A stretch of 64,000 nucleotides of DNA from Raphanus sativus. Lineage: Eukaryota > Streptophyta > Magnoliopsida > Brassicales > Brassicaceae. The notes under the pieces are model-generated. The model searched no databases. It saw nothing but the letters and a program-made list of their open reading frames with translations, and was not told the DNA's origin. The stretch lies in assembly GCF_000801105.2 (NCBI RefSeq), contig NC_079518.1, forward strand, positions 19,386,800 through 19,450,799, read 5' to 3'. Shown here in pieces: positions 13,556-64,000 of the stretch (positions are counted from its first letter, which is position 1; each line of letters begins with the position of its first letter). Made by a program: the position numbers and the translations under genes.

Positions 13556-16049
13556 ATGAGTCAAAAGGAAGGTTCCGGCGAGGTTCAAATCTCTGCTTCC
13601 GGTGTTCATATTATGAAGGTTAGGCAGGAAGCCGGCAAAAAGATGAAGGACGCCAAGAAGAAGAAAGCTAAGGACTCAATCGGAGCGAGAGTCAAGAGGA
13701 TGAAGAAGAAAGGTGGCAAGAGCGCCTCCTCTGGACCTCACTTTCCCTCGCTCTTGAAGAGTCAAGACGTCGTCAAGCTCACGGCAAGAGTGACCTAGCT
13801 AGAGCTTGTACCGAAGATGAAACCCCCGAAACTGTTCTGGAGGGTTGGTTCTGTGTTCACGAGAAGTATATCTCTAAGTGTCATCTTAGGTTCCCTCTCC
13901 CCACCCTCTTGCTAGATCTCCTAGATCATTATCAACTGGCCCTTTCCCAACTTTGTCCCTCGGTCATCCGAGTGATAAATGGATTCATCACTAGGGCTAA
14001 GGAAGAAGGAGTCATCGTGGGGCTGACCGAGCTAATGAGTCTCTTCCTGATAAAGGAGAGCACTAACAAGGATGGCGGAAGCGGTACCTACTACCTCCCT
14101 TGTCGTCCAGGGCTTGGCATCTTCAAGTTTACGGCCAGTGACGATGACTGGCGAAAGAAATATTTTTTATGTCAAGATCGACCCTTCGACGGTTCCTGTA
14201 GGCCGAGACCTCAGGGCCTCTTGGTCTGACATTTCTGGTTAGGATCTTAGGGATATGTTTGTGTATTATTTTTGCTTATTGCGACTTGCTGACTTCTTTG
14301 ATTCTTCTTGCAGAGATTGAGGACCCTGTCAAGTTATCCGGTAAACTTACCAGAGCTCTCTACAGGAAGCTGCAGCACAGCCCTAATACTTGGGGAGATT
14401 ATACTACTTCGAGAGTTGGATCAGCTAGGTTCCCTGAACGATACCAGGCTTCCTTTCCTGATTCACTCACAGTTGCTGGTCTAGACGGTAACCTTCCTTT
14501 ATTGATTTCTAGTTTTGAATATTCGAATTTATATTTTGGGACTGAAGGTTCTCCTTATGGTTCAGTTCCTGAAGGTGAATCGATATTCTCAGTCTCGTCA
14601 GGAGCTAGTACCTCAGAAAGGACTCAGTCGCACAAGATGCCTATCCAGCCCTCGTTCCGTTCCAGGGGTAGATCGACTAAACCTGCCAGATCCTCTCGAG
14701 GAAGCGACAAGAATCAAGGAGGGTCCTTCCTCAGCACGGTGAAAGATGTCCTTGATGATGGAGGCTCTGCTCCTGCCAAAGATACCAGTCGCTCCGAGCC
14801 CAAGGTTCAAGAAGTTGTCCCTCACCCTGAGGTCCCGGAGGTGGAAGCTGATCCTCAAATAGTGAAGGATACTCACGAGTTCGAGCCTCCGAGGAGGAAG
14901 AGGTCCAGGACCGACCAGGTTGACAGACCTTCCAGGTCCTCTTCCTCTTCCTCTAGAGGAGGGACCGTCGGCTGGAACTTTACTCACTCGAATCCAGGAT
15001 CAGTATTGGATGACTCATGGGGTTTGGCTACACTGATGAGGCACATGAAGAGAACCGGGTGTGCTCTCCCCTCGATCACCAACCTCTCAAACAAAGAGGA
15101 GTACGTTGATATTGCCCATTGCATGGGTCAGGTATGGTTTTCATTTTGGACTTTTAGCTTAATCTTCTTTGGAAGATGTTTATTAAGTCTTTGTTTTCAT
15201 TTGTTGCAGCTGGCTGGAGCTATCAACAGGGCTCAGTTCAAGTTTGAGGAAACTGTGCACAATGCCCCCAACGCTGGTGAGCTAGCTCAGGTTACTGAGC
15301 TAGTCAGAGCTACTAAGATGGAACTTGATCAAGCTCGGGTTCAGGTCTCTGAACTTCAAGCCGAGGTCAGGAGACTTGGCTCCAAGGCTGACATCCAGCA
15401 AGGGACGATCGAGAGTCAAGCGATTGACATCCAGGTGAAGAGCAGGAAGATTGGGGAGTTGGATGCTGCTCGGAAGATAGCCGAGTACCAGGTCAAAGAG
15501 CTGATTGCTTCATCTCAAGACAACCAGAAGAACAAGGAAGCTGAGGTCAGGCTAGCCGTCCGGAGAGGAAAGAGGGAGGTAGCTGACGCTTACAACAAGG
15601 TCCTGGTTTCTGTTAAGAAGAAGTTCTCCAAGAAGAAGGATGAGGTCGATCTTCTGGTTTATGCTCAAGAGCTTCAAGCTAATACTGAGCTCCTGAAGGA
15701 CATGCTGGATAACGAGATCAAGAGTGCTGAAGACGAGTACACTCGCTTGGTGGCTATGATGCCGGAGGCAGTTGCTGCGTACGAAAAGGCTCAAGTCTCG
15801 GACTTCTCGATCAGCAAGCTCCCTCGTCCTCAACTCTCTGAGAGTTCAGGTACTTTTGAGGTTAATATGTTTAATCTCTCCTTTTCTGGAGAGTTCGGTT
15901 CTAACTTGGGATTGGTGGGTTCTTACTCAGCCCCAGTCGAAGCCACCCCGGGAGGCGATGATAAGGAAATGGAGGAAGAAGTTCCTGACAAGGAAGATGA
16001 TCCAGTTGACAAGAGAGCTGAGAAGAGCTCAGGTGATAAGGAGGTTTAA
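13556..16049 (+). CDS. Antisense extra ORF of Tat element B (Transposase_28-like plus coiled coil)
   Basis: The start is ATG 13556 in a good context (ACCATGAG). A Lys-rich N-terminus (13600-13740) is followed by a one-base frameshift near 13745. The domain at 13800-14190 (FPLPTLLLDLLDHYQLALSQL, then a GSGTYYLPCR segment) resembles the 'putative gypsy type transposon' family Pfam Transposase_28. Introns are likely at about 14192-14313 and at 15132-15209 (GT...TTGTTGCAG, 78 bp, in frame). A Ser-rich linker with basic patch (14640-14990) precedes a coiled coil (15210-15790) and an acidic tail. Extra ORFs in sense or antisense are known in many Tat elements; function is unknown. The stop is TAA 16047-16049. 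Confidence 0.65.
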
Positions 16050-16059
16050 GAGCTGAGGC

Positions 16060-16830
16060 TCTTTCGTTTGCTTTCAGGATTTCTGCCCAATGGGCTTTTA
16101 TTTTATTTATGTATCAGATCTACAGCCTGAGGAGGCTTTTAAACCTTGACTTATTTTAGGGTCTTCGGAACCCTTGGTAGCCTGGAGAGGCTTTTAAACC
16201 CTTTTTATCTGAATTTGGTTTTTATTTTCATTCCAAGTCTTTTGATTTAACTTAGTCATTTTTTGGACGAATTCGGTTTAGTGAATTCTCAGAATTAGAT
16301 CTCGGGTTTTAACATAAGTCTGGAAGACTTGAATTGTCTTTGGTTCCTTAAGAGGAATTCTTGAAATATCGAGGTTAGCTCAAGGTTTTTAGGAACCTGA
16401 GTTCAGTTTGGGCTCTTTTTTTAGACTGGTTCATGGGAACCTGAACTTGTTTGTGGGATTTTAAGACCCTTTGAAACTTTCTTAGGATTTTAAGACCTTT
16501 TGAGATTGGATAAGGATTTTAAGACCATTGTATTTTGTTAAGGATTTCAAGACCTTAGGTTCAGATCCGTGGAGACCTGATTCTGTTTGAAGGATTTTAA
16601 GACCTTGGTGGTTTCTAAGGATTTTAAGACCTTAGGTTTAAGTTTATCAATTCTGATTTCGTTTGAAGGATTTTAAGACCTTCGAGAGTATTAAGGGTTT
16701 TAAGACCTTAGGTCCAGGTGCTTGGAGACCTGAGTTGATCTGATGGGTTTTAAGACCTTAGGTCCCGGTTTGTAGGGACCTGAATTTTTAAAGAGTCGAG
16801 GTATCGAAGATAATTGTTTTATTGACAATG
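16060..16830. repeat. Hairpin-rich spacer of element B
   Basis: Just after the antisense ORF stop is a run of short inverted repeats: GCCC-AAT-GGGC (16087), AGCCT-GAGG-AGGCT (16124), AGCCT-GGAG-AGGCT (16179), GGTTC-ATGG-GAACC (16428), several AAGG...CCTT units around TTTTAAGA (16450-16700), and a 7-bp stem AGGTCCC/GGGACCT (16760-16766 with 16775-16781). No coding potential is seen. Confidence 0.7.
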
Positions 16831-17014
16831 GGATACACGGTATCATAATAATCGTACAATTGCTGTTTGGGCTATGTGATTTCAATCAGACATATGCCCC
16901 CTTTGATCGTGGTGAACAGAGTGTTGAAATGAGGTTGGGGCTGCACTCATGACGGAGTTGCCTACGTACCCAATCAAGGGATCAAGCCTAACGTAGTTAA
17001 AGAAATTTAGGTAC

Positions 17015-18370
17015 CTAATGATAGTATCTCTTAAGATTCGTGGCGTTCCACGATCTGATTTCAGGTACCCTATTTCGCACCTTTTGGAGCTTGTAAACGC
17101 CAGGTCTTACCACATGGATGATCCGATAGGGACTCTCCCAGTTGGTTCCTAACTTCCCAGCATCTGGTTCTTTCGTTCCTTCGAAAACTTTCCTAAGTAC
17201 TAGGTCACTTACAGCGAACTGTCGGGACCTGACTTTGGAGTTGTACTGTCGTGCCATTGCTTGCTGATAGTTTTGAATGCGAATCAGAGCTCGGTCCCGT
17301 CTTTCCTCGATTAGATCGAGGCTGTCCGTCAGGAGCTGGTCATTAGCTACAGGATCGGACGTACAGAGGTCCCGGCGGAGGCTACCAGCAATGGTTTCGG
17401 CTGGTACGACAGCTTCCATCACGTTGGCTAAGGAGAAAGGGGTTTCCTCTGTAGCCTTTCGTGGGGTGGTTCGACATGCCCAAAGTACTTCAGGTAACTT
17501 TTCTGACCAGAGTTCCTTCTGGGTTCCGAGGCGTTTCTTGAGGTTGGCTAATACTGATTTATTAGCAGCCTCCGCCTGGCCGTTTCCTTGAGGGCGTCGA
17601 GGTGTTGAGAAGGTCAGGCGGATATTCCATTTGTCACAAAATATTTTGAAGTCGTGGGATATGAATTGTCCTCCATTGTCAGTCACGATTTCGTATGGGA
17701 CGCCGTGTCTACACACAATATCTTTCCACACAAATCGTTCGACCTCAAATCTGGTTACCTGTTGGAAAGCTTCAGCCTCTATCCATTTCGTAAAGTAGTC
17801 TGTTAGGACTAAGAGGAAGCGTAGCTTCTTCTTTCCACTTCCTGACGCTACTAGTGGTCCTACGATGTCCATGGACCACCTCATAAATGGGTAAGGGGCG
17901 GATATGTTGGATAGCTTCTCCGTAGGTTGGTGTATAATCGGTGCATGCCTCTGGCATTTATCACATGAGGAAGAGTAGACCTCACAATCTGCAATAATGG
18001 TAGGCCAGAAATAGCCTTGTCTTTTGATTCGGATAGCTAGAGCTCTGCCACCAGAGTGGTTTCCACAGGAACCGTTGTGCATTTCTTTCATGAGTTTCAT
18101 AGCAACGAGGCCATGAACACATTTTAGGTGAGGTTCGGAAATGCTTCGTTTATGGAGGGCAGAATTGATTATGCAGTATCTTGCGCTCAATGCTTTGAGT
18201 TTTCGAGCCTCCCATTTATTGGGTGGAGTCTTTCCCTCCAGGATATATTGCATGATTGGTGCTCTCCAGTCCTCTCTTCCTACAACTTTGTTATGAAGAG
18301 ATGAGGGAGGTTCCTGTTCGGGACCTGGTGTCATGGTGCCCCCGGAGATATTCGTAGGATTAGGCTCCAA
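17015..18370 (-). CDS. Integrase of Tat element B
   Basis: About 450 codons are open. The zinc-binding HHCC domain is visible (HNGSCGNHSGG ... CDKC). The catalytic core has the first Asp in WSMDIVGPLV, the second in EIVTDNGGQF and the Glu in NGQAEAANK, so all three DDE residues are present. The C-terminus ends SWNATNLKRYYH with no chromodomain, as in Tat. The polyprotein frame enters from the left linker, so the first Met shown is not a true start. The protein would join cDNA ends to host DNA. It is the best-preserved catalytic domain in the window. Confidence 0.9.
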   Translation of the reverse strand: MEPNPTNISGGTMTPGPEQEPPSSLHNKVVGREDWRAPIMQYILEGKTPPNKWEARKLKALSARYCIINSALHKRSISEPHLKCVHGLVAMKLMKEMHNGSCGNHSGGRALAIRIKRQGYFWPTIIADCEVYSSSCDKCQRHAPIIHQPTEKLSNISAPYPFMRWSMDIVGPLVASGSGKKKLRFLLVLTDYFTKWIEAEAFQQVTRFEVERFVWKDIVCRHGVPYEIVTDNGGQFISHDFKIFCDKWNIRLTFSTPRRPQGNGQAEAANKSVLANLKKRLGTQKELWSEKLPEVLWACRTTPRKATEETPFSLANVMEAVVPAETIAGSLRRDLCTSDPVANDQLLTDSLDLIEERRDRALIRIQNYQQAMARQYNSKVRSRQFAVSDLVLRKVFEGTKEPDAGKLGTNWESPYRIIHVVRPGVYKLQKVRNRVPEIRSWNATNLKRYYH

Positions 18371-29240: not shown

Positions 29241-30231
29241 AACCATCATACTGAAAAGGGCATATAGGGCTGGATCAGATCCCTCGGACCGCTGATCCCG
29301 GCTCAGCCTCACTAATACATGGCACGCCCACACGAAAACAATAACATATATGAGACTTTAAGGCATGAATGGGTCTGATCAACACTGAGGTATGCTTGTC
29401 AAAATTATCTATAACCCCGGTATAGGCCTAAAGCCATAGAAATATCGGGGGCCCATAAGAAAGAGTACTGTGACACCTCCGGGTTAATTCAGGGAATTTG
29501 CATATTGCCAAAGTACTGCTTCGCGCAGGGAGCAATACATAAACCCCTGCTTCTCTAGACGTGGAAAGCGGTAGAACAAGTCTGGAACACTGGGTCCACG
29601 GATCCATAACCAGCACCCCCAAGTCTAATAAAGGCTTCTGGCAGAACCAGAATGCAGCATGGAACTCGATAGTGACAAGCTTCCCAGCAGTAGAATGCGA
29701 GGTCCCAACAGGTACCGGTAGTAGTCATGCCTAGATGGACGGAATACGGTCCCTGCCAAACAAAACACTCCAGATTCCTATGAACTACAAGTTCTTAGGA
29801 ATTCTGGGCTCCAAAGTGAGAACCCCAGGGTTGTCACAAATAAAAGACTTCCGAGTCCTGATAACTTCCGAGTTCCTAAACAAACTTTCAAATTCTTAAA
29901 ACTTACTTCTAAAGTCCCAATAAACTCTTGAGTGCTCAAGTCCCAAATTATAAAATATATCTCTCAAGGATTCTATATGAGCTCTTAAGTTCTAGATCAG
30001 ATTTCCAAGTACCCAACAGACTTCCGAGTCCTCAACAAATCCACGGATTCTTCAAGCCTTCGGGCCCTTAAAAATTGAACCGCCAGGTTCCCAGGCATTT
30101 GACCTTCAAACTCCTATAAATTTTCCGAATCCCAGACAGTATCCTAACATACAGACGAACTCCGAGCTCCCTAAAGACATGCCCTAGGATTGCACAATCC
30201 TTGAACTATCTTATAATCTACGAGGTCCCCT
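29240..30231 (+). repeat. Mini-hairpin array, 3' spacer of Tat relic J1
   Basis: A non-coding stretch of short inverted repeats with small loops: GACT-TCCG-AGTC (about 29846 and 30019), AACT-TCCG-AGTT (29863), AATC-CACG-GATT, GAACC-GCCA-GGTTC (30078), CTTGAG-TG-CTCAAG (29927-29940), AGGATTG-CA-CAATCCT (30186-30201), and a longer one with arms at 29774-29785 and 29791-29802. Its first part (29440-29740) resembles J2 at 58740-59030 (shared AGACGTGGAAAG and GAATGCAGCAT). Confidence 0.75.
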
Positions 30232-31267
30232 GATATACCATGGATTTTACCCACTTTTACCCATGGTATAAAGATGTTTTTACTATATAAATATATGTTT
30301 TAGAGTCTATTGGGTATGTTTTCAGGCTCAGGAGCATTTTGGAGTAAAGTGATGTTTTAGGTGCCCTTTTGGAGCCTAAAGGAGAGTTCACCCGAGATGA
30401 CTATCAAGATCAGACAAGAAGTCGATATTCAGAGATCGAAATCGATCGATGCACACTCTGTGCTATCGATCGACGATGTATCCAAAGAAGATAACGTATC
30501 GAGACAACCAATCGATCGATGTACGCCTTGTACCGACTAGTTGGACTCAACCGACTTTAAGCCCAAGACATCCCCAAATTACAAGATTACCCCTGACAAG
30601 TTTTTAACCTAATGAACTCATATTTATAGTTATGCCTATGTGTTTTGGCAAAGTACTAGTCTTTCACCTTACAACAAGCTTTTAACAATCTTTTCACCAC
30701 TTCAAAGTTATTATTGCATTGTTCTTAATTCAAAGTTATTTTCTACTATTATTTTGCAAAAGGTTATAGAATTCTAGATCTAGAAGAAATATACAAAGAG
30801 ATTTGTTATCCCGAGGAACTTAAGTGTTCGGTCTTCTAATCTATATGAATCTCTATTATTACCTTGTTGCCATGAACTGCTTAGCCATGTCTGAGTAGAT
30901 TATATTGTTAGATTTAGGGTTCAAATATTTATGAAGGATTAGCCCAAATTACGGATTGTAGAGTTGTGATATTCATTATCATGATGAACCCTAATGCGTA
31001 TTCTAGAGTAGCTAACTAGAATATGAACTTGGAATGCATTAACTCGTTAATCATTATCCTGACATCATCTTGCATAATCTAAGATCCTCTTGGGATGCGG
31101 GAGAGCCGGTCTATGATCTTGGTGAGAATCCACATCAACTATATCTGAGCTATATCGATCGATACCACTTTCAAAACATTGATCAACTAAGAGTTGAAGC
31201 TCTTTAATATTATGCATGCAACTTTTTAGTCATCTATAGCATTATAGTCCTGATTATCTGAATAGTC
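30232..31267 (+). repeat. Athila-related LTR, 3'-truncated
   Basis: Starts TGATATACCATGGATTTTACCC like the LTRs of E and F, with no polypurine tract before it. It follows the same course as LTR D down to CCTGATTATCTGAAT and then stops at a junction with inverted copy G. It contains several TCGATCGA words (30441-30513, 31157) in non-coding DNA. Confidence 0.8.
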
Positions 31268-33285
31268 ATCTAGCTTGACTGTGGTATGTGAGTGACTCAT
31301 GGGGTGCAGTGGGGGTTGTTGTTTTCTGTTGGGCAAACATTTCCCTCATCTTTGGACTTAGCACCAGTGAAGCTTCTTGTGACATTATCTGAGCCTGTCC
31401 TTGTAGGATATATCTTTGCTAAATCTGCTTTGATGACTTGCTACCTTCTGACCAAATCTTCCGTGTCTACCTGATGCTGATAGAAATCAAATCTTGAATG
31501 CTCAGGTAGTTCTTCATGTTGTTTGTTTTCGTGCTGGTCTTGAATCTGTTGATCCTGATCTGCCAAGGATTCTGTATCGATCGATGCTACAACTTGTGCA
31601 TCGGTCGTTTCGCTGGGATCTCTGTCGGTCGACTCAGTATCATCTGTGTCGATCGATTCTGAGCGGTGGCCTTGGTACGCAAGAATTCTCTGCATATTGC
31701 TTGTAAGACCCGAACCCGGCCGGCTAGGCCGCGGTCGATGCCTCACGTCGTTCGGTCCATACCCTGACCGAACCACTCAATTTTTTGATCTTTATCTATA
31801 CTTTCGCCTAAGGGCGAAGTCTATCTTAGACCTTAGCTTAAGACTACCTTAGTCATTCCCTAGCTTAGATCCTTTCAACTTATGCACAGCGGAATATCTC
31901 TACTTATCCATTGGTCTAAAACCAATCTAACACTGGTGAGATCGAATCACCTTAGCCATGGTCAGTATACACAACTACTACCAGCTCCAAGGTTGATCCT
32001 GAACCTAATCCAGGTCATACAATAACCGAGGTTCCATTTCCTTAACCATTCTATCTAGATCTATGCAATATTGCTAGATCATACCTTTGCCACATCCACG
32101 GAGCTTGATAGCTCTTTGTCTCAGCTGCCTTAGCTGTCTAGCTAGCTCATCCAGCTAGCTGAACTGAACCACTTCACTTGAGGTTCCCAACTCTCTTCCA
32201 GCTGATCGAGCTGCGAGGTAGCTTTGCCTAGCTCCCCGTCCACTCGTCCAACTCCCCATTATACATGTATAAACTCTCCCCTTAGGTACTTAGTCATTCA
32301 ACCAACCATCCCCACAGACCAAGTACCTTTGGGAAGTCTTCAGCTGCAAAACCAACCACAAGCAAACATGCTCCAAAAACTAATTAAAATTCATGATAAT
32401 TCATGATAAATCATAACTAAGAGAATGGTCAAGTCAGATTTCTCAGAACTGGCCTCGATCATACTGATCTCGCCCATGAACAGCCCATATAGCCATAACT
32501 GACCACCTCTAAATCAATGAGATAAAACTAATCTTTCACCATGATAATTCATGATAAATACCCATTAAGAGATATTTGAAGTCGGATCCCAACAATTCCT
32601 TCAGGAACTATCAGATCTCATCTTACCTGCCCAACCAAGGCTATGGAGAGATTTCTCTGAACCGGCCACTCCATGGTTCAGTACCTCCATGTCTGAACAT
32701 CGTAAAATAAGATTAACAAAGCCCACCAGTTCCTGAGTCAATCAACCAACCACCCCACATGGCTCAGGACTGATGAGTCTTCACACATACCTAACCGGCC
32801 ATGAAACCATGTCCCAATGAACCTGGTCAGTCTTGCTCTTCTTCATGGCTCTCAGCCAATCCTGTACCAACCCAAGGTTGATACCTATCATACCATATGA
32901 TTCCATTACCTCATTGCCACGGCCTGAAGCCATTGGTAATGCAAAACCATAGATCAGGTTCACTCATGAACCACCATGAATCACTAGTTGATGTATAGCA
33001 TCTAATTATCATTCCATATGGATGAATTAGTTCAACTATGATCCGCCATATTCTCCAGGGTCCTGTATCCCTATAATACATCACAATATATGGTCTCCAA
33101 GGGCGTGCCATACTTGGCCTCATATGCACCTCAAGAGACACCAAAAATAAACCACAAAGTAATCATATGTACATGTTACCTTAGACTTGATCTTACTAGA
33201 TCTTGTGCTTCATGTATCATGTCTGGCCATGCTCCTCCATTGCACGCCTCTATCATGCCTTATCATATACTTCCAGTATTGATAA

Positions 33286-33830
33286 GATCCAACCATGGGT
33301 CGCACCAATCATCCCTTTCATGGAACTTCCATGAAACCAGTTTCTGCACTGCATCCACCTTCAAGGCTGTAAAAGCCTTTGGGAGTGGAGTCCGGCCTTC
33401 TCCATTCTCTTCTGGTCATTTGCATGTGTCCCTAAGACACAGAGGAAGCCTAGGGTGTGTTCATCCATGATCAAACACCACCCAAGGGTCGTCCATCACT
33501 TCTCACTTCAGTACCCATGAAACTGCCTTTCTACACACCACTGCCCTTAAGGCTGCTCTTGGACTTTGAGAGTGAATCCGGTCATCTACCTTCTTCCCTG
33601 GCTATTTGGATGTGTAGTAAGGATGTTGAGGAAGCCTATGGCGTGGCAAACCATAATCAAAACACACCAGAGGGTCGTTCTCAACTCCCCTCTTGATTGC
33701 CATCAAAACTGCCTCTTTGCTGCCTTCAAGCCTCTCTTGGTCTTGGATTGTGTAATCCGACCATCTCTCTGTTTTTCTCTGTTTTTTCTTTGTGTTTCAG
33801 GAAGAAGAATGAAGCCCTGACGTGCCTGCA
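33286..33830 (+). repeat. ~185-bp tandem repeat inside the solo LTR
   Basis: Three diverged units start at about 33286, 33469 and 33655 (GATC/AATCAAACCA...GGGTCG, then ATGAAAC...CTGC...CTTCAAGGC...TTGG...TCCGG.C.TCT). The last unit runs to just before the TATA region. Confidence 0.75.
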
Positions 33831-33850
33831 AAGGCACGGACTTGCCTTCC

Positions 33851-33860
33851 TTATATAGAA
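33851..33860 (+). promoter_or_regulatory. TATA-like box of the solo LTR
   Basis: CTTATATAGAAG lies about 620 bp before the LTR 3' end, after a GC-richer stretch, as expected for a plus-strand promoter at the U3/R boundary. Confidence 0.5.
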
Positions 33861-36698
33861 GAAGTGGTGGTTACTTTCCAACCATTGCATCCCTTCGGTT
33901 TCATTTCTGGCTATTGATTTAATCAATGGTCCAGATCACACCTGTTCGCCTATGGCAGTTACCAGACGTCCCTGACAGCCCTAACTGTCTCTAGACATGT
34001 CACAAACAAGTCCTAGCTAGTTGCCCAAGCCCCTGGTCTGATCCCAAGTGCCCACCGGCTCACCGGCACACCCGGCTGGTCCACATGGTCCGACCACTGT
34101 CCGGACCTGGCCCAACTGCCCAAGACTTGAACACTCAGTCTAGCTGAGTTGAGCTGATCCCCAGCTGACCCAGCTGAGTGAGCTAGTTCATCCAGCTCAG
34201 GGAGCTGACACACTCTTCAGTGAGCTACACTATGCTGCACTACAATTCATCTAGCTGGTCGAGCTTGCCCACTGCATCACCCAGCTGCCATACACTTTGT
34301 ACAGCTCCTGTATACTTTTCTCCTTCTTGGTTTAGCTATGTCTTAGCTTCCTGATGCCCTTAACCTTACTTCCAGGCCATGATACCCTTGTTTTTAGGTC
34401 ACATGACCTGACTGGTGCGTCTCCTTGCACCATGGTCGATTCTAACAATCATTTCCAGGAACGGGGACATGACATTGCTTATCTCATTCTTTAATAGACC
34501 AGTAGCTCTACAGAGGTTGGTCACTCTTTCGTTGAGGGTGTTGTCAATGTCATCACTTCGTTCTATGAGTCTCTCCTCCATAGAATTCAGGGCTTCGTAC
34601 AGCTTATGTTTGATCTCATCAACTTCTGCTGTGGTGCATGCTCTCTTTGCTGGTGGTGGCTCGATGTCGATCGATATTGGTCTAGGCCTGTCGATCGATG
34701 TCGCGGTTCTGTCATGACGACCAAGATGATCGTGAACTATGCTCATGTCTCTTTGTAGCTCGTTCAGCTGTCGTGACAGTGTATCCAGGTATCACATGAT
34801 AGGTGAACTTAAAAGATCATGCTTCTCTTCGTATGCTTTCATCCTATCTTCCAGTTCTGCGATCCTTGTGTCGATCGACGGTGAATTCAGTGTGTCGATC
34901 GATGAAAAAGTAGCATTCTTAGCTTGTTCTTTCTTGCGAATTGATGCTAGCTCTTTCTGTAGAAGATCGATCCTCTTGCTTAACCATTCAACATTGTTGT
35001 TGAGAGGGCTGTAGACGTCTCCAATCCGTGTATTGATGTAAGCAACCTCTCATTCATCTCTCTTAGGTGATGAACATTCTGGTCGGTCCATGGATGTAGC
35101 CTTGCCGATGTCGATCGATGGTACTCGTACTTTGTCGGTCGATACTGGTGGCGTAACCTCTTTCTCATGCATGGTTAATATGTTTCCAAGCTCCACTCTT
35201 ACCTCAGCAATATCACTCTGGAAGTCCTTGTAACTGACATCCAAAGGCTGGAAAGTGTCTTCCACCAATGTGTGCATGTTTGCCTCAAGGTGTGCCTGAG
35301 CTCTCCATACATAAGTCACCATATCATCTATCTCCTCTCTACTGGAGGGTACTGGTGGTGGTATGTATGCATGGTAAGGGCGTGTGTGTACTGGAAGGCG
35401 TAAGCAACCTCTGTGAAAAAGGGATGCTCTATCCAGAATTCTCTTTACTTGATCCTTGGTAACATGGATGATCTCACCATCAACTCCTCTAGCATAGTCA
35501 AACTCATATCTGTAGACACCATATTCATCCTTAGCTTCCCATTTTAATCTCCTGGATCCATCAGTATTGAAGGCACGTCGTCCAAACTCCAATCGTCTGT
35601 CGGACGATCTGACTCTTGGTCTGTCGATCGATCCGGGATATCCGCCGTCGATCGATGGTCTTGAAACGATGTCGATCGATGGTGAATTCCTAGGTTGACC
35701 GAAGTGTTGAGGAACTGTATCCTCCCTTGTGTTGGTGTTGTGGTTGTTTTGGACGTGAGCTAGGATGTCTGGATGGTTACGTTGCTGTGTGAACAGGTTT
35801 TCTGGTCCATTAGCAACTTGGCGGATGTCTGCTATGTCTTCTCTGGTTATGTGCAGAACTCTTCCATCCATTGCTCTTGCATAGCCGTCTGTGTCCCTGA
35901 AAATTCCAAATTCATCAGGTGTTAGTGAAACGTTCCTGATATCGTAAGGTTCATGAGATCAAGGTTGAGCTCTGTTGAAGTCGTCGATCGATGGTGATGT
36001 GGTGGTGGCGATCGATGGTGCACGTCTAGCTGCACGGTTGGATCGATTGTACATGTTGTTGCAGACCTCCATTGATAGGTTTCTGAATGCTGGAAGCTGC
36101 TGGATAGAAGGTGAAAAGTTTTGAATTTTTGTGGCTTGGGTTGTCAACCTTTTATACCCATGTGTGCCCTAATCGGTGAAATTCCGATTTTGTCCTTCAA
36201 GTCATCCGGGTTAATATCGATCGATGTGATACTGGCGATGTCGATCGATGGACGATGTCATTTTGCTGGATGAAGTAGATAATCGATCGATGGTGGGCGT
36301 TTGATGTCGATCGATTGTGGAAATCGAATTGCAAATCTGTCATTCTCCAAGTAATTTTCCCAAGCTCTCTCTTCCCAATAGTCTGCATCATGTTCTTCAC
36401 TGTGGTCTCCACTGTGGGAAGAGGTGGCTATGTCTACTGCAAAACTCTCATGAAATCTGCTATCTGCCCAACTCCTTACTGAGTAATCATCTTCCTTTCG
36501 GCTGGGTGGGATGGCGAAATTCGGGTAGCAATGATCTGGTAAATCGAGTTCATCATCTGGTGGGTCTCTGTCAATCGATGATCTATATTTGTTGTCGATC
36601 TCCTCTGACTTGCAAGTGTCGATCGATGATGTTAAAGTGCTGTCGATCGATCCCGAGTACTCTATCTCATACTCGACTTCACAATGACAAACTGCTAT

Positions 36699-37482
36699 AG
36701 AGAAGCCGCCAGAATATTAGAGGAACTTCACGAGGGAGAGTATGGTTCTCATTCCAGTGGTCGAAGCTTAGTGCTCAGAGCCAGAAGAGCTGGGTACTAC
36801 TGGCCAACCATGGCAAGGGACTCCCTCAAACAAGCTAAACTCTGTAGCCAATGCCAGAAGCACGCGCCAGTCTCCAATCTTCCACCGGAGAACCTCAAAT
36901 GGGGGCATAGATATCGTGGGGAAATTTCCCATGGCACAGGGGCAAAAGGTCTTCCTCCTAGTGGTGACCGACTACTTCACAAAGTGGATGGAAGCTGAAG
37001 CACTAGCCAAGATAACGGATCTCCGGATCAGGAAGTTCCTATGGACCAACGTGATCAGACGCTTCGGAACCCCTCATGAAATCGTCACAGACAACAAACC
37101 CCAGTTCACGAGCTACAACTTCTGAAGGTTTTGCAAAGACTGGAACATCAAACTCTCCTATTCAGCACCACGACATCCCCAATCAAACGGTCAAGCCAAG
37201 TCCACTAACAAGACGGTGGTGAATATTCTCAAGAAGCGCCTAAAAGACGCTCATGGGCGATGGGCAGAAGAGCTACACGGAGTACTCTGGGCCTACCAGA
37301 CCACTCCAAAGACGGCCACCCAGGAGACTCATTTCTCACTTGTCTATGGTGCTGAAGCGGTAATACCCACGGAGGTGCACGTAAAGACCATGGTCTCTGA
37401 ATTCCTCTCCCAGGAAGAGAACAACGAGCTAATGTCCCTGAGTCTAGACCTACTCGATGAAAAGAGAGAGGCGGCCCGCTAA
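36699..37482 (+). pseudogene. Tat-lineage integrase fragment with a catalytic Glu-to-Lys change
   Basis: Starts REAARILEELHEGEYGSH, with the HHCC region (GYYWPTMARDS ... CSQCQKHA). A small deletion and frameshift near 36900 precede GIDIVGKFPMAQGQKVFLLVV. The second Asp is in EIVTDNKPQF. A TGA lies at 37123-37125. The motif NGQAKSTNK has Lys where the DDE Glu should be (NGQAEAANK in element B), so the core could not be catalytic even if read through. It ends LDEKREAAR at a junction with F-type 3' sequence sharing GCTAAGC. Confidence 0.85.
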
Positions 37483-37485
37483 GCT

Positions 37486-37654
37486 AGGATAATGCATAAT
37501 GAACGTTTGTGATTAGGATGTTTAGACATGAATTGCAACCCCATAGAGTGATGACTTCAATATTTTGAATCTTTGAGTTCCTGTTGTTTTCAAACCTTTT
37601 CCAAAGACTACTGTTTTTGCTTGAAGACAAGCAAAGGAGTAAGTCTGGGGGAGT
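37486..37654 (+). other. 3' non-coding tail and polypurine tract upstream of LTR 37655
   Basis: Matches the end of F's 3' region (57248-57412). It keeps the form GCTTGAAGACAAGCAAAGGAG before AAGTCTGGGGGAGT (37641-37654). This shows that the LTR that follows was originally a 3' LTR. Confidence 0.8.
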
Positions 37655-39013
37655 TGATATACCATGGATTTTACTCGTTTTTAACCATGGTATACTAGTA
37701 TTTTATTATATATTTAATCTGTTTTCTAGCCTGTTAGGTATGTTTTCAGGTTCAGGAGCATTTTGAAAGAAAGTGATGTTTTTGGAGCATTTTGGAGTAC
37801 ATGAGATGATATACCCGAGTTGACCATTCAAGACTAAGTCGGAAGTCAACATTGCTATTATAATCGATCGATACTCATCCTGAGTTGTCGATCGATGTAG
37901 CTGAGAAGATCCGCGTAATAGAAGATTATAATCGATCGATACACATCCAGTGTTGTCGATCAATATCCAAGACGAAATGGTTTAGCCGACTACTTCACCA
38001 AGACTTCACCAAATTACGAGATTGCCCCTGACGAGTTTTTAACCTAATGGAAATGCTTAAATATTCCTGCTAAGTGTTTTTTGACGGCAACCTTCGAAAG
38101 AAGCAAGCTTTTAACAACCCTCAAGAGAGAAGCAGAGAGTGTGAGAGAGAGACTAGAGTTTTATTTGTTTTGAGAGATTGGAGAGATTTCTCATCTCCTT
38201 TTGTATTTCTACTTTATTCTATCTATGAAATTCTTTCATCTATCTATTGTTATGAATTGCTTAACTATGTCTGAGTAGTCTACTTGTTAGATCTAGGGTT
38301 TAAATAGGTTTGTGGGATTAGCCCCAAACTATAATTGCTAAGTTGTGATACTCATCAAATGGATTGTATCCTATGCTTGTTTTAGATTAGCTAACTAGAA
38401 CATAGATCACTAGGATCTTATATTATCTTGAATTATCCATTTGAGCGATGCCTGTTTCCCGTTGAGAAGAACGACAATTCCTCCTTGAGACCTTGTGGTC
38501 ATATATGGTTCGCGCCTAGGCAGATCTAGAAGCCGTCTATCGATATGCCGACAGGTGAATCGATCGGCGCCGCGAAAGGTGTATCGCTCGATATCTCAAA
38601 AGGATATCGACCGACTATTTTTCTGTGTCATCATGCGAAAGGTGTGGCTAGAGATCTAGATATTTTAACCAGTGATTCATCACATATGTTAAGCGGCTGA
38701 GATCTATAGTATCATGCAAGCAACTTGTTAAAGCATTTATAGAGATTATAATCTCCATTCCTGAATAGAAATCCTATGTCTAGCACTCTTTATCACATTT
38801 AAACAACCCATCATATTGTTAGTTAGAGCAACTACCTTGCTCATTTTAGGAATTGTTATTTTCATTTCTATCATATAAACCAACCTTGCCTAGGATTGAT
38901 TAGTAGATTTTATTTAATTGGTTCCCCAGCTCCTCGTGATTCGATCCCTAAGTACTACAGCTGTACCTCTTATTTGAGAGAGTAAGCTCTACTGGGTAAT
39001 TTGAGCACTATCA
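37655..39013 (+). repeat. Left LTR of element F (1,359 bp)
   Basis: TGATATACCATGG...GAGCACTATCA. It differs from the right LTR by roughly 4% by eye plus a ~45-bp block (about 38858-38905) missing from the right copy. TCGATCGA words occur at 37862-37970. No primer site follows it: sequence goes straight to SID-type codons at 39014. Confidence 0.88.
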
Positions 39014-50928: not shown

Positions 50929-53283
50929 TTATGTGTAAAAAGCGTGATCGTCTATCAGAGGACGTTTTACTAGTTTTTCCATGTCGAAGTTCATTGATAT
51001 ATCTCCGACATTTAAGTTAATCTTTCCTCCTTTACAATCTATTATTGCTCCTGCTGTAGCCAAAAAGAGCCGACCTAATATAAGGGGGTCTTGCGGCAAT
51101 TGTTTATACTTGAGTACGACAAAATCTGCTGGTATGAAGCAATCATCAATTTTGACTGGTACATCTACGAGGATTCCCTCAGGTACCCTAATAGAACGAT
51201 CAGCTAAGACTAGCGTAATAGGCGATGGAACGAATTTATTATATCTTAGTGAAACTGCCACAGAGTATGGCATGAGGTTTACACTAGAACCAAGATCACA
51301 TAGAGATCGAGGAAAACATGCGTTTTGTATCTTACAATCTAGGACAAAACTACCAGGGTCAGACCTTTTGATTGAAGTTTCTCCTTGTATCATCGCACTT
51401 ACTTCCTCTGACACCAGCATGACGCTTTGTTCTCCACTCGAGGATATCATATCTTTTACGTACTTTTTCACCGAGGGGGCTATCTTAAGAGCGTCACTGA
51501 GGGACATCTCGAGAGTGATTTTGTCGAAAGCCTTTTTGCAGATTGCATGTTCCAATGCTTTCTTAGTTTGTGGTTTGTTTGGAGGAAATGGGGGAGGAGT
51601 TCTATAGACTCTTTCAGTTTCGGTAGATTGTGTATTGCTATTGCTGGTGCCGCTAGACGGTCGATCGTTTTCTTTCCCAGAGGATCGATCGACATTTGGT
51701 TCGTCCAGATGGTCGATTTCGACTTCGGCATCGGGATTCTCTTTGTCTAAATCTATAGTTTTCCCTTGATTCTTTTTATTTGAAGATTTTTTCCTTTGTT
51801 CTGATGTTCCTGAGTCGGAGTCATTGTCGAGAAGTTCTATGGGGTTGGAATTGCTTTTTCCCGCGTTATCGATGAATTTTTTATTGCTGGCATCTTCTCT
51901 GGGATTCGTTTCAAGGTGTTTTCCGCTTCGTAACATCACGGCATATGCCTGGCATTTTGCTCCAGGGTTAGCATCGGTCCTTCCAGGAAGACGACCTGTC
52001 TCTCTTTTTAGAGTAGTTGCAAGGTTAGCAATTTTGTCTTCCATTCCCCGTAGGTGTTCAATTAGAGAATCCATCTTCTGATTTAGCTCATCGTAAACAC
52101 TATTTACTTTCCTGTTGAATTCGGATTTCATTTTACGGTTTTCTGTAAGAGCATGTTTTAGATTGTACTTTTCTCTTCCAGTATGAGACTGTATACAGAT
52201 TTCATAGTCTCGTGTAAAGCTGTCAACGTTAAACACAGAATGAGGACCAGTATTATCTAGTTCTTCTATAAAGTCGAGCTCATTGTCTGATATAGGAGGA
52301 GTTTTATTGTAGTACTGGCACAGGTTAGGTGGGTTTCGATCTGTTAGAAGGGAATGAAGCGAATTTATAGAATTTTTAATCTCGGCTAACTCAGTATTTT
52401 CTATTGAGATTATAACTTTTTCTTTTTCTTTTTCTTCATTCATCTCTTCATAAGATCTTCCTGTTGCCATGTTTTCGATTAAGCGTCTTGATTCCATAGG
52501 ATTTCTAGTAACGAAATTCCCTTCGCTTGTTGTATCAAGCGTTGTCTTATAGCTCAGAATAACACCTTTGTAAAAGATCTTAAGAAATTGTGGTTCTGGA
52601 TAACCATGGTGGGGGCATTCGAGTTCGTAACTCTTGAATCTTTCCCATGCATTTTTGAATGATTCCTGAGGATCTTGACGGAAGGTAGAGATTCACCTCC
52701 TCACATCCCAATAACGAGTATCATCGAAGAATTGCTTAAGGAAAGCATTTATGATCTCTTTCCAGCTAGTCAGGGATCCTCTTGGTAGACAGTTTAGCCA
52801 TCTCAAGGCTCCTCCTTCTAATGAAAATGGAAAAAGTCTGCAACGAATATACTCGTCCGGAATTAATTCCTCTAGACCCTCGATGTGGTCTTGTGGATGT
52901 TCTAGAGAAGATCCTTTAAAAGGGTTTCGATGCATCATATTATAATAATCAACATCAAACTTGGTTTTCGAGGTGACGTCGTCAGGTATTCTGATAGCGG
53001 ACCTATTGGAATAGGTCCTATCGGGGTTTAAGTAGTCTTGCAAGGGCAATTTAATTTCTTTACCTATGTTCAAGGTAGAGTTTGACTTAACAGGGATTTC
53101 AGTCCCCTGTTTTTCATTAGTTTGGCTAGAAATGTTGCTTGATTGACCTATTGGTTCAGTTTGGACTACTTTCTCATTATTAGCATCGGTAAGAAGGTAC
53201 TTACCTGCTTCCGGCTGAGTGGTATCGATCAATACCGTTCCGGATGAAACGATCGATGCTTGGCCGACATCTGTGTTCTCCAT
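50929..53283 (-). pseudogene. gag-protease of Athila element E
   Basis: Start at ATG 53283 (MENTDVGQASIVSSGTVLID), 95 bp after the primer site. Gag domain: SLEHPQDHIEGLEELIPDEYIR and EGGALRWLNCLPRGSLTSW. A TGA at 52693-52695 interrupts the frame, then WERFKSYELECPHHGY. A charged middle segment contains one SID-like stretch (EPNVDRSSGKENDRPSS). The protease at about 51400-50990 has DPGSFVLDCKIQ, CDLGSSVNLMPYSVA and DPLILGRLFLATAGAIID, again with DLG at the active site. It ends at TAA 50929-50931. Confidence 0.88.
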
Positions 53284-57412: not shown

Positions 57413-58722
57413 TGATATACCATGGATTTTACCCGTTTTTAACCATGGTATACTAGTATTTTATTATATATTTAATCTGTTTTCTAGCCTGTTAGGTATG
57501 TTTTCAGGTTCAGGAACATTTTGTGAGAAATTGATGTTTTTGGAGCATTTTGGAGTACAAGAGATGGTATATCCAGTTGACCATTCAAGACTAAGTCGGA
57601 AGTCAACATTGCTATTATAATCGATCGATACTCATCCTGAGTTGTCGATCGATGTAGCTGAGAAGATCCGCGTACTAGAAGATTATAATCGATCGATACA
57701 CATCCAGTGTTGTCGATCGATATCGAAGACGAAATGGTTTAGCCGACTACTTCACCAAGACTTCACCAAATTACGAGATTGCCCCTGACGAGTTTTTAAC
57801 CTAATGGAAATGCTCAAATATTCCTATTAAGTGTTTTTTTACGGCAACCTTCGAAAGAAGCAAGCTTTTGACAACCCTCAAGAGAAAAGCAGAGAGTGTG
57901 AGAGAGAGACTAGAGTTTTATTTGTTTTGAGAGATTGGAAAGATTTCTCATCTCCTTTTGTATTTCTACTTTATTCTATCTATGCAATTCTTTTATCTAT
58001 CTATTGTTATGAATTGCTTAGCTATGTCTGAGTAGTCTACTTGTTAGATCTAGGGTTCAAATAGGTTTGTGGGATTAGCCCCAAACTATAATTGCTAAGT
58101 TGTGATACTCATCAAATGGATTGCACCCTATGCTTGTTTTAGATTAGCTAACTAGAACATAGATCACTAGGATCTTTGATTATCTTGAATTATCCATTTG
58201 AGCTTGCCTGTCTCCCGTTGAGAAGAGCGACAGCTCCTCCTTGAGACCTTGTGTTCATACTCGGCTCGCGCCTAGGCAGATCTAGAAGCCGTCGATCGAT
58301 ATCCCGACAGGTGAATCGATCGGTGCTGCGAAAGGTGTATCGCTCGATATCTCAAAATGATATCGACCGACTCTTTTTCTGCGCCAACATTACGACAGTT
58401 GAGGCCAGAGATCTAGATTATTTAACCAGTGATACTTCACTTGAGTTAAGCGGCTGAGATCTATAGTATCATGCAAGCAACTTGTTAAAGCATTTATAGA
58501 GATTATAATCTCCATTCCTGAATTGAAACCCTATGTCTAGCACTCTTTATCACATTTAAACAACCCATCATATTGTTAGTTAGAGCAACTGCCTTGCTCA
58601 TTTTAGGAATTGTTACTTTTATTTAATTGGTTCCCTAGTTCCTCGTGATTCGATCCCTAAGTACTACAGATGTACCTCTTATTTGAGAGCGTAAGCTCTA
58701 CTGGGTAATTTGAGCACTATCA
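57413..58722 (+). repeat. Right LTR of element F (1,310 bp)
   Basis: TGATATACCATGG...GAGCACTATCA, preceded by the polypurine tract. Contains TCGATCGA words at 57621-57725 and 58295. About 45 bp shorter than the left LTR. Confidence 0.9.
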
Positions 58723-59695
58723 TTAGGTCAGGCCCTAAAGGACCATATATCTTAGCAAACCCCATATACTAGGGAGATTACTCTCATGGGTGTACGACAT
58801 ATAAGGAACAGGTCTTATTAACCCAGACGTGGAAAGTAGTGTGTTGGTGTGAAGTCGCTCCGCGGGGCAGGCCCACACTAGCACCGTAAGTCTGAGCGTG
58901 ACCTTTTCTACAGAAAGGTAGAGTGCAGCATTGAGATTCATGAGAGTGGCCTATACCTCCGGGTGGCAGAGTGCGGTTTCTCAATAACAAGATCGGTAGT
59001 GGTTCTCCCATGGGGAGCAGAATACGATCACAAACCTCCCATAATGCATACGGCCTCAGTGTCTATGAAGAACCTCCGGGTTCAGTACGGCCTCAGGGTC
59101 TATAAAAGAACCTCCGGATTCAACACGGCCTCAGGGTCTATAAAGAACCTTCGGGTTCAATACAGCCTCCAGGTCTGTAAAGAATCTCCGGATTCAAGAT
59201 CATCTAAGGGTTGATCAAGGACTTTCGGGTCTAAATGATCTTTGGATCTAATAAGAACCTCAGGGTTCAAGGATATTTGAATCCAAATACCAACCTTCGG
59301 GTTTGCCAAGGACCTCAGGGCTCAAAGGCATCAACCTCCGGTCCTAGGACCTAAAGATTAAACCCCACTACTCAGAAACCTCAGGGTTCAATGAGAAAAC
59401 CTTCGGGTTCAATAAAACGGCCTTCGGGCCTAGGTAAGGGACCTCAGGGTTCATGGCCTTAAGAACCTCCGGGTTCTATGGCTCAAGAACCCCAGGATTC
59501 AAACCGAGTTAGAACTCTAGGGTTCTAAGCAAGGATGTTTTATTCCAAAACTAAAACTCAGGTTTTTTAATATTGGATTACAAGATCTAATGCTTCTCTA
59601 ATTATTTCAGGGCTCAGTCAGTTTACTAACAGGATCCATGTCCTAGACTCTGATATCTTTCCAAGGGGGCCAACCCTTCCTACAAACCTACACGT
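58723..59695 (+). repeat. Tat relic J2: 3' spacer with mini-hairpin array
   Basis: Non-coding. 58735-59040 resembles J1 at 29440-29740. From 59070 to 59535 runs an array of more than twenty short inverted repeats, among them GAACC-TCCG-GGTTC (59070-59083 and 59463-59476), GAACC-TTCG-GGTTC (59145-59158), GAATC-TCCG-GATTC (59182-59195), GAACC-TCAG-GGTTC (59255-59268) and GGCC-TTCG-GGCC (59419-59430). It is bounded by the LTR of F on the left and of H on the right. Confidence 0.8.
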
Positions 59696-60222
59696 TGTGG
59701 GAACCGAAATTCGCACTGTCGATTTTAATGAATAAAAAACAGAGGAAAGCCAAGTTAACCCGACTTTCCCTAAAGGTCCGGATTCTCTGCGACAACCAAC
59801 GACAAGTGATCAAATAAATGCGGAAAGGTTTTATTAAGATTTGAGACTGGACCTTAAGGAAGGCTACCTACGTACCCCTTTCGAGGATCAAGTCGGACGT
59901 AGTTCAGTTGGAAGGGTTTGAACAAGAGATCGAACTGCCTGGCGGAGTTCGTCTAGTACGAGCGTTTGTCATAGAAACGGGCGTGTCGAGAATAACGCCT
60001 AGGGTTTCTATGTGCGGAACTCTGAGTAAAATGATTGTTAGATTCTTCCGAAGGAACAGAAGTCTGCGGACAAGATGAAGGTAGAACGAGACGCGGCCAG
60101 ACGCCTAGGTCATGCCTTGCTAGTCTAACCACCTAAGTTCTAAGTTCCATCGGTCTAAAATCTCGGATCTGATCTCTAAGACTCTCAATTTTCTTCTCGT
60201 CTTTGTTTCTCTCCTCAAGCTG

Positions 60223-60232
60223 ATTTATATAC
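60223..60232 (-). promoter_or_regulatory. TATA box in LTR of H
   Basis: GTATATAAATCAGC on the minus strand, in a sharp AT-rich dip between GC-richer parts of the LTR. Confidence 0.55.
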
Positions 60233-60750
60233 TCCTCCTTATGACGGTCTATTCTCCTTTGGGCCGCGAAGCGGGCTTTTTCCATTTTCGTCGGCCTTCA
60301 TGTTTATCGGGAACTTGACATTTATCTTCTGGAAACTTGACATTTATCCTTCTTGAAATTTAGCATTTATCTTGTTATGTAAAGATAAACGTAAATCGTC
60401 GTATCTATCTCAGATAATCGTAAGCGGACTGTCCGATCGCGTTTGGTCCCTTTCGGGCCGTCTCTAGGACTTCCGTTGTTTTCTACGATTTCTTCGGAAG
60501 ATCTTCAATCCTTCGTAGAGTTGAGATGAGTGGTGTCTTAAGATAAACATCACTGTTTTGCACGAAGAATTTAAGATCTTCCTTCCCGTTGATATCTTAC
60601 GAGTTTCCGAAGTGTTTCCGATGATCTTTGTTTGGAGTAAGAACATAAGTTTTGTACGCGGAATTCAATGATTCGTTTCGCGAAAACTTGGGAAAGACGC
60701 AAAGTACAGACTCCTGACGGCCGGGGCCTAGAACTTATGCACGGAAGCTT

Positions 60751-60935
60751 GTCGCCCGACGACCCGAGCCAGCAGGGGCTAGCCGCCCGGCGGCCATGGC
60801 CAGCACGGGCGCTAGCCGCCGGCGGCCACGGCCAGCACGGGCGCTAGCCGCCCGGCGGCCACGGCCAGCAAGGACGCTAGCCGCCGGAGGCCACGGCCAG
60901 CACGGGGGCTAGCCGCCCGGCGGCCAGGACCTCGG
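60751..60935. repeat. GC-rich ~34-bp minisatellite in LTR H
   Basis: About five units of the type CTAGCCGCCCGGCGGCC then ACGGCCAGCACGGGCG. Very CpG-rich and itself palindromic (GCCGCCCGGCGGC). Confidence 0.9.
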
Positions 60936-61329
60936 CGAGGGCTTCGATTTGATATCTTGCTCGTTTTCTGGGTCCTCACGGTTTGAGAGAACGGGCTCTT
61001 TGAAGTTTCAAGGCGGATTCCTTGTCGTTCGGCCTGTCCAAACTTAGATTACTTCTCGTTTCTTCCGTATACTTTCGTATGGTCGTGTCATATCAGCTAC
61101 GGACCTAATGTCTCTCGGTTCTTCTTGATTGTATCATCGAAGTTTTACGACTAAATCTGAGTTGGTGTTCTCGGAAAGTTTATCGTGTAAAACAAGAACG
61201 ATCGACTTTAACATAGGTTTTTTAAGCTATTCGACTTGTTTTGCTTTCGATGCTTGTTTTATGGAAAGTCCGCACACGATAAATATTTTTTAGCCGTTGA
61301 TTTCGAGATAACCGTTTTTGACCCCAACA

Positions 61330-61346
61330 GTTAGCCCCCCAGCATG
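61330..61346 (-). other. Polypurine tract of element H
   Basis: TGCTGGGGGGCTAAC on the minus strand immediately before the LTR start TGTTGGGGTC. Confidence 0.75.
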
Positions 61347-62654: not shown

Positions 62655-64000
62655 GTTGATCGATCCCTGAGGGGATTTTTATTTTGATTGTATTTCGGCC
62701 GTTGGTTGGCCATTATGTATGATTTCGGGACTGGCCGTTGGTGGCTTTGAGTCCCTGCCCTTTTTAGGGCGTTGTATTGAACTCGCGGTATGCGTTTATA
62801 AAATATTTTGCGTTTAGAACTTCTGTTTGTCGAAGTTAGAGGGGCAGTGTGTGAGTTGTCGTCTCATTCCTGCCTCCCTGACGATCACCGTATCCGTAGT
62901 TTGTACAAAGCGAGATTTTCCTGCGGTTTACGATTTACGCGAAAATTCGTGAAAACGTACAGACTTGAGTGAAGAGACAAGTTTTGGGATCTCGCGTCGT
63001 TGACGCTTTGCCTATGAGATGTTAAGATACCAGCAAGGCTGGGTTTAGGGCAAGACCTAGGTTTACTCTCAGACTGAGGCTGTGCGATGACAAATCGGCT
63101 TTCGTTTTGCCTGTTTGTGATTTTAACCTGATTCGTACCGTTTTAAAATCCGCGAAGTGGTATCGGCTTATATGATTTGTCTGGGCACGAATCGAGCTAC
63201 TTCCTTTACGAAGTGCTGAACCAAATTTGGATTTTTTGTATAGCGCGCTATGGGATCCTTGTCGGATGTAAAAGAGCCTACCCTTAGGTGGCTTGTTTGT
63301 TTAGGACGTTAGAGTTCGTTTGTTGTGATCAACAACAACGATATGATGCCGTTTAGAAGGCGTATGAAGGTTTTAATCGAAAAACGAATGTTCAGGCACG
63401 AAGCGACGTCTCGCAGTGCTTTGAAGTTTGTTTTTCTTATGCCATAAAGGACTATGGGCTTTTAGAAATCGCGGAATGTTTCCGGGCGATAGTTTATGAT
63501 TTATTTGGTGGATACTGGATCCATTGTTGAGGCCGTTTAGCGATTGGCGAGTTTGTTTGCGAAGAGTTTTGAAAATTCGGTTTCTGTGTTTGTAAAGAGT
63601 TTCGAAAATCCGGTTTCTTCAAAAAACGTGGGATTATACAAGCGTACACATTTCAAATGTGTACGAGTTAATTTTCCCTTGTGCCGCATTTCAAATGTTC
63701 GTGGGCTTGGAGATGTTTTGCGAATGTCCGTAGTCAGAAACTGTTGTTTCAGTTTGGACGTGCAAGTTATAAAATTTGATCGAGGAATTAGGACCAGGGG
63801 TCGCGTATATTTGACCCAGGGAGAAGCGTCTACCTTCGCTTTGCTTCGCGAAGTGTTGGCCTTCCGGGATTTTAAGGACGACTCGTATAACTCTTGGAGC
63901 TTTGTCACGAGTGTTTCTTTTCATGCTTTGTTTACGGGGCGTATAGAACTTAATCAGTCGATGTTAAGTTCAAATTTTTCCGTTAACCGTATGGCTGTTA
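62655..64000. other. Spacer of element H, no gene
   Basis: No convincing ORF on either strand. Short inverted repeats again follow the ORF stop: GGCC-GTTGGTT-GGCC (about 62697), GCCCT-TTTT-AGGGC (about 62757) and 10-bp arms GTACACATTT / AAATGTGTAC (63644-63664). A 35-bp direct repeat around GAAAATTCGGTTTCT lies at 63565-63625. Integrase of H would lie right of the window. Confidence 0.6.

Follow-up and report, generated by a model that had tools for sequence, protein, structure and literature searches.

A Palindromic Minisatellite in the pol–3′LTR Spacer of a Putative Tat/Retand-Type Element of Radish

The Array and Its Hairpins

The window, the whole 64-kb stretch of radish (Raphanus sativus) DNA that was analysed, carries an array of short palindromic units at 59049..59527 on the plus strand. 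It comprises 24 units of about 19 nt, each made up of a 5-nt arm, a 4-nt loop, a second 5-nt arm and a short linker. The units, taken as 18 nt at a median spacing of 19 nt, were located by an iterated motif search in which pairing was not used, and 86 of their 120 arm pairs are Watson–Crick. At least four of the five stem positions pair in this way in 15 of the 24 units, and all five in 5. There are 13 hairpins that combine a Watson–Crick stem of at least 4 with a 4-nt loop, whereas 300 dinucleotide shuffles, a control that does not model the tandem repetition of the array, gave 2.15 ± 1.37 and at most 7. The excess is small when G–T pairs and loops of 3–6 nt are permitted (16 hairpins against 13.4 ± 1.9). 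The array is confirmed as real, with the mini-hairpins of the original prediction at the expected places: GAACC/GGTTC at 59070 and 59463, GAATC/GATTC at 59182 and GGCC/GGCC at 59419.

Both tiles of the array rank 1 and 2 among the 255 tiles of the window for 4-nt-loop hairpins. Compared with the whole spacer (58723–59694), none of 188 control tiles has more 4-nt-loop hairpins or more stems of at least 5, and two exceed it in total stem length. Hairpin density is not peculiar to these spacers, since control tiles at 31801–33000 match their stem-length score. The folding energy of the array was not equalled in any of 100 shuffles of either strand (z −3.60 on the plus and −3.36 on the minus strand), but it is less distinctive than the hairpin counts. 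When base pairs are allowed to span no more than 24, neither strand has the array tiles among its 14 best of 255. A search of Rfam 15 at the gathering score gave no match on the array. The sole match in the window is the plant snoRNA snoR71 at 52601–52707 (44.7 bits; gathering score 40), which lies between two minus-strand ORFs of an Athila-like element.

The Host Element and Its Surroundings

Protein similarity and layout suggest that the host is a Tat/Retand-type Ty3 element. The array lies behind the pol of a Ty3-type element and on the pol strand, and its repetition (24 units; a 37-bp repeat in 4.0 copies at 59048–59197 according to TRF) exceeds the three tandem copies taken as the minimum for the repeats of this lineage. 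In the window, the element is interrupted. A broken integrase fragment of the same family was detected by tblastn at 36698..37479 on the plus strand, and a nested Athila block separates it from the array. The spacer upstream of the array (58723..59048, plus strand) begins after the end of the nested Athila LTR at 58722, a boundary set by alignment with 37478–39013. The integrase fragment is 87% identical to the integrases of two other genomic loci, L096 and L097, where the integrase stands upstream of the array. On the array strand of L097, the pol matches reach to base 2350, and matches to 58724–58824 and 58823–59647 of the window follow at 2535 and 2861. The order of integrase, spacer and array on one strand is the same in L096. 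By the coordinates of these two loci, approximately 0.3 to 0.7 kb lie between the last integrase match and the start of the array. The assignment to a Tat retroelement spacer is supported.

A search of the 433-Mb genome (6413 contigs) with a 601-base query returned at least 42 matches, the window included, most of them full length at 85–88% identity, with 40 of 220 candidates scored. Downstream, the spacer appears to be truncated by an LTR-like stretch at 59695..61335 on the minus strand. This stretch was considered as the 3′ LTR of the array's own element. The evidence points instead to another inserted element, because a polypurine-like stretch on the minus strand adjoins it at about 61340 and because similarity to the window ends between 59666 and 59695 in 33 of 37 copies. 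Pieces similar to 59696–59760 and 60263–60926 are found in L096, approximately 0.5 kb behind its array. Within this stretch, 60739–60926 is a G+C-rich tandem repeat of 32–33 bp in 5.8 copies, and similar repeats lie behind the array in L096. The presumed spacer of the truncating element (62660–64000) has a hairpin stem length of z 4.15, and 3 of 188 control tiles have a higher value. Elsewhere in the window, an insertion of approximately 2.8 kb inside an Athila element (31703–34473) is hairpin-dense and has TG...CA ends and a 5-bp duplication, TTGCT. A relative of it is located directly behind the array in L097.

Related Arrays

A sister-family array occupies 29760..30232 on the plus strand. 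It has 19 units with other arms in the same layout, was likewise found without the use of pairing, and has 54 of its 95 arm pairs in Watson–Crick form. The sister spacer at 29300–29780 is homologous to the flank of the first array (alignment score 183 against 144.6 ± 7.7, maximum 179 in 200 shuffles). Six more loci of the sister family were analysed, with 15 to 25 units each; L138, L140, L142 and L143 were left out, the last two lying on the L137 contig. The array of L134 is nearly homogeneous, consisting mostly of GAACT-TCCG-AGTTC every 20 nt or so. An integrase is present upstream on the same strand in two of the six loci (L134 and L136), and none was found in the other four within the flanking DNA examined. 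At least two related families in the genome thus carry a palindromic minisatellite. Behind the sister array of L135 a further palindromic unit, AGCCTCCAGGCT, recurs and resembles the hairpins of the third element described below.

Directly behind the first array, the window retains a remnant of a second one (59661..59680, plus strand), with palindromic units of approximately 17 nt (AAGGG, a 5-nt loop, CCCTT) that is complete in genome copies. In 16 of 20 copies examined, TRF reports a period-17 row behind the first array, with 2.5 to about 6.7 copies.

A third element, also of Tat type, has a hairpin-rich spacer at 16050..16975 on the minus strand. Its hairpin excess amounts to z 3.5 to 3.9; on the three measures used, 4, 3 and 10 of 188 control tiles score higher. 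On one side of this spacer is the stop of an integrase ORF (17015..18370, minus strand; Pfam integrase core at E 2.7e-14), on the other the end of an antisense ORF (14259..16049, plus strand; Pfam DUF1633, 38.1 bits against a cut-off of 26.4). The integrase is 90% identical to P0001 and 81% to a Brassica carinata protein. TRP28 was not seen in the six proteins scanned.

Relatives were also sought in microbial and viral sequence collections. In IMG/VR, the integrase search gave no relatives, an alignment-based search gave one distant locus, and a pattern search gave six contigs that were taken as chance. From GTDB contigs, 80 of 229 loci were kept, among them a plant-like one (L008) with a strong hairpin behind its integrase and no array seen. 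This locus is a low-coverage 3.1-kb contig in the genome record of Robertmurraya kyonggiensis, its integrase is of plant-like Tat type, and it is probably contamination.

The Loop Sequences

UNCG loops are a class of RNA tetraloops, and their stability had been proposed as the property that is kept in the array. The loops of the 24 units are TCAG in 7, TCCG in 5, TTCG in 5 and others in 7. Ten are of the UNCG class and 14 are not, TCAG is the commonest loop, and 10 is close to the 9.2 that independent loop columns would give. The sister array has 7 UNCG loops among 19, against 4.3 expected, and its closing pair is U–A in 12 of the 19 units. UNCG closed by C–G is consequently not a rule of either array, and its stability as a kept property was rejected on the loop counts and the U–A closing pair.

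Pairing Is Retained While the Arms Change in Two Families

The retention of pairing was examined with an arm-shuffle test, in which the 3′ arms were redealt among the units of each array and the relatedness of the units was ignored. The Watson–Crick count of this array (86 of 120) compares with 71.8 ± 3.8 and was reached in 0.06% of 5000 shuffles. For the sister array (54 of 95), the expectation is 43.7 ± 3.5 and the count was reached in 0.3% of shuffles; for the 81 distinct units of the sister loci, 213 of 324 pairs compare with 187.8 ± 6.4, reached in 1 of 3000. G–T and A–C mismatches are both fewer than the shuffled expectation: G–T 12 against 20.3 and A–C 9 against 14.5 in this array, and 34 against 46.7 and 45 against 58.1 in the sister family.

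Relatedness was taken into account by simulating neutral change from a palindromic start along a neighbour-joining tree of the units, in 1500 runs with transition shares of 0.6, 0.75 and 0.85. For pairs 2–5, the observed Watson–Crick count was reached in 0.6, 0.7 and 1.4% of runs, respectively, in this array and in 0.1, 0.4 and 1.3% in the sister array. Double changes were reached in 0.8 to 3.1% and 0.7 to 2.3%, and with all five pairs the value for this array at a transition share of 0.6 is 3.6%. With 18 letters behind each tree, these values are indications. In a cruder simulation of decay, the figure was 0.2% for Watson–Crick pairs and 10% for double changes.

No covariation was seen in the third element (19 of 36 pairs, 17.1 expected, p 0.20) or in the second array (195 of 265, 192.6 expected, p 0.25). 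The paired stem changes of the original prediction exceed chance in this array and in the sister family, and not in the two other arrays. The arms of at least two related families stay Watson–Crick above the neutral expectation while their sequence changes. Within this array, the two arms differ from the unit majority at rates of 0.28 and 0.27, compared with 0.28 in the loops. The original prediction had named stems that decay like loops as evidence against a maintained fold; such equal divergence is what the units within the array display, but not the copies of the array across the genome.

Variation Among Genome Copies

The copies were compared in a set of 34, the window's included, from which L131 and L132 (lowest identity) and L102 and L106 (at least 99.5% like another copy) were left out. 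At 59330–59345, most of the copies shown have approximately 30 nucleotides more than the window copy. This length difference breaks the frame of unit 59330, which was left out of the variant and pair-state counts. Variants seen once are evenly distributed, at 0.45 per site in stems, 0.53 in loops and 0.43 in linkers, and are presumably mostly post-insertion changes. Variants in at least three copies amount to 0.14, 0.36 and 0.21 per site, respectively. The ratio of shared to private variants is 25/83 in stems, 33/49 in loops and 32/66 in linkers, so that sharing is less frequent in stems than in loops (p 0.017) and not significantly less frequent than in linkers (p 0.16). Of the shared changes, transversions make up 3 of 25 (stems), 7 of 33 (loops) and 13 of 32 (linkers). 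Stems are not alone in their low sharing, since the short flank at 59000–59046 has still less, with 2 shared and 25 private variants.

Sense RNA or Both Strands

If it is the sense RNA that is kept folded, G–U pairs should be tolerated and A–C pairs should not. The majority states of pairs 2–5 in the 34 copies are 79 Watson–Crick, 9 G–T, 2 A–C and 2 other. Four of the nine G–T states are pair 3 of the sister units 59049, 59086, 59124 and 59161, and the independent G–T events are therefore fewer than nine. Among changes away from a Watson–Crick majority, the ratio of G–T to A–C is 18:17 for those seen once, 3:8 for those seen twice and 9:6 for those seen at least three times; elsewhere it is 34:45 (sister loci) and 21:21 (second array). 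Full symmetry between G–T and A–C, the first view taken from the window copy alone, was dropped because several A–C pairs of that copy are private and the fixed states lean towards G–T.

For consensus folding with RNAalifold, L127, L128 and L130 were also dropped, leaving 31 copies. The sense strand folds at −208.0 (z −5.83) and the antisense strand at −195.2 (z −4.09). Of 100 column shuffles, which do not model the tandem repetition, one attains this margin. The margin is kept without special loop bonuses and is gone without G–U, so the sense strand folds better because of its G–U pairs. Single-sequence folds of both arrays have similar z values on the two strands. Overall, the evidence that the pairing is kept by the sense RNA, as opposed to DNA, to cDNA or to both strands, is mixed.

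Origin of the Pairing

The feature is a palindromic minisatellite in the pol–3′LTR spacer, where tandem repeats have already been described (PMC7004042, PMC11963269); this reading follows from the position behind the integrase of a Tat/Retand-type Ty3 element and from the homologous arrays in the sister family. The explanation tentatively favoured for the pairing, at a little short of an even chance, is that the hairpins sustain themselves during replication through template switching in reverse transcription. The reverse transcriptase would pause at a hairpin and could then jump to a neighbouring or co-packaged copy, whereby units would be gained or lost. A switch inside one hairpin would copy one arm from the other and so restore pairing. 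The element may put the hairpins to some further use, which this explanation does not require. The position of the array behind the integrase and on its strand, the second, unrelated palindromic unit directly behind it and the pairing above both shuffles and tree simulations favour template switching. Repeated expansion is suggested by the near-homogeneous sister array with its 20-nt unit and by the 15 to 25 units in six loci, and the depletion of G–T and A–C alike is as a process that restores Watson–Crick pairs would give. In E. coli, template switching moves imperfect inverted repeats towards perfection (PMC7202029), and for the repeats of this spacer a role of abnormal strand transfer between co-packaged copies has been put forward (PMC7004042). 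Arm-copying by the enzyme of a retrotransposon would be an extrapolation from bacterial replication. Against template switching stand the 9:2 excess of fixed G–T over A–C and the better folding of the sense strand, neither predicted by the process alone, as well as the third element and the second array with no covariation.

It is these fixed states, together with the RNAalifold margin and the rarity of shared variants in stems relative to loops, that would be explained if the hairpin chain were a selected structure of the sense (genomic) RNA, serving for instance in packaging, dimerisation or protection. Such selection is possible but rather unlikely, as four of the nine G–T states fall at one position of sister units, changes to G–T and A–C occur in comparable numbers in the copies, the sister family and the second array, stems do not differ significantly from linkers, and single sequences fold similarly on both strands. 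The approximate symmetry of G–T and A–C outside the fixed states would suit an action on both strands, with the spacer as the common 3′ region of pol and an antisense ORF whose transcripts both carry the palindromes, or with a protein that binds DNA palindromes. In the third element, the array is bounded by the stop of the integrase on one side and by the end of its antisense DUF1633 ORF on the other, and antisense ORFs of this region, many with a predicted DNA-binding domain, have been described (PMC11963269). The arm sequences vary more widely than a sequence-specific protein would tolerate, and action on both strands is held to be very unlikely.

The array may also be an ordinary tandem repeat whose unit is palindromic by chance, the pairing being a decaying remnant of recent duplication. 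Tandem repeats are usual in this spacer (PMC11963269), arms and loops of this array depart from the unit majority equally often, arm shuffling ignores relatedness, and two of the four arrays tested have no covariation. In simulations that include relatedness, the pairing of pairs 2–5 is reached in 0.6 to 1.4% (this array) and 0.1 to 1.3% (its sister) of runs, and different palindromes recur in neighbouring and related arrays; simple decay is accordingly regarded as improbable. Template switching remains the preferred reading of the retained pairing.

Relation to Described Systems and Implications

The radish array resembles the pol–3′LTR repeats of Tat/Retand elements in lineage, as far as tested, in place, in tandem arrangement, in family specificity and in variable copy number. 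It differs from them in that its units are inverted repeats with co-varying arms. The terms “hairpin” and “secondary structure” are absent from the main text of PMC11963269, and six such terms from PMC7004042. No paper was found in the open-licence literature searched on hairpins or stem-loops in the tandem repeats of Tat/Ogre elements or in LTR retrotransposons, nor on UUCG tetraloops in the latter, and no earlier description of the palindromic nature of the units was found there. The original statement that no described element feature is like it was too strong with regard to spacer tandem repeats. As a whole, the interpretation offered in the original prediction is partly supported.

Sireviruses also have repeated symmetric motifs in the non-coding DNA of a plant LTR retrotransposon (PMC2829016). 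Those elements are Ty1/copia, with LTR motifs that have a CGG-CCG core and an inverted repeat at the PPT/3′LTR junction, whereas the radish array has a Ty3-type integrase upstream, an internal position behind pol and another sequence, and does not belong with the Sireviruses. Quasipalindrome template-switch mutation (PMC7202029) offers a likeness in process, in that imperfect inverted repeats become more perfect without selection; it was demonstrated in the DNA replication of E. coli and not in retrotransposon reverse transcription.

Plant satellite DNA is seeded by the post-pol tandem repeats of Tat elements (PMC7004042), whose origin and function PMC11963269 describes as unknown. If hairpin units drive their own duplication and repair, this would provide a concrete and testable origin for the Tat tandem repeats. 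If pairing is selected instead, a region read as junk would be a structural part of the element. It is conceivable, albeit doubtful, that Tat-type elements carry behind pol a modular chain of mini-hairpins that is selected for its pairing and not for its sequence, in the sense RNA alone or in both the sense and the antisense RNA. The “hypervariable tandem-repeat region” would then be a conserved structural element with freely replaceable sequence.
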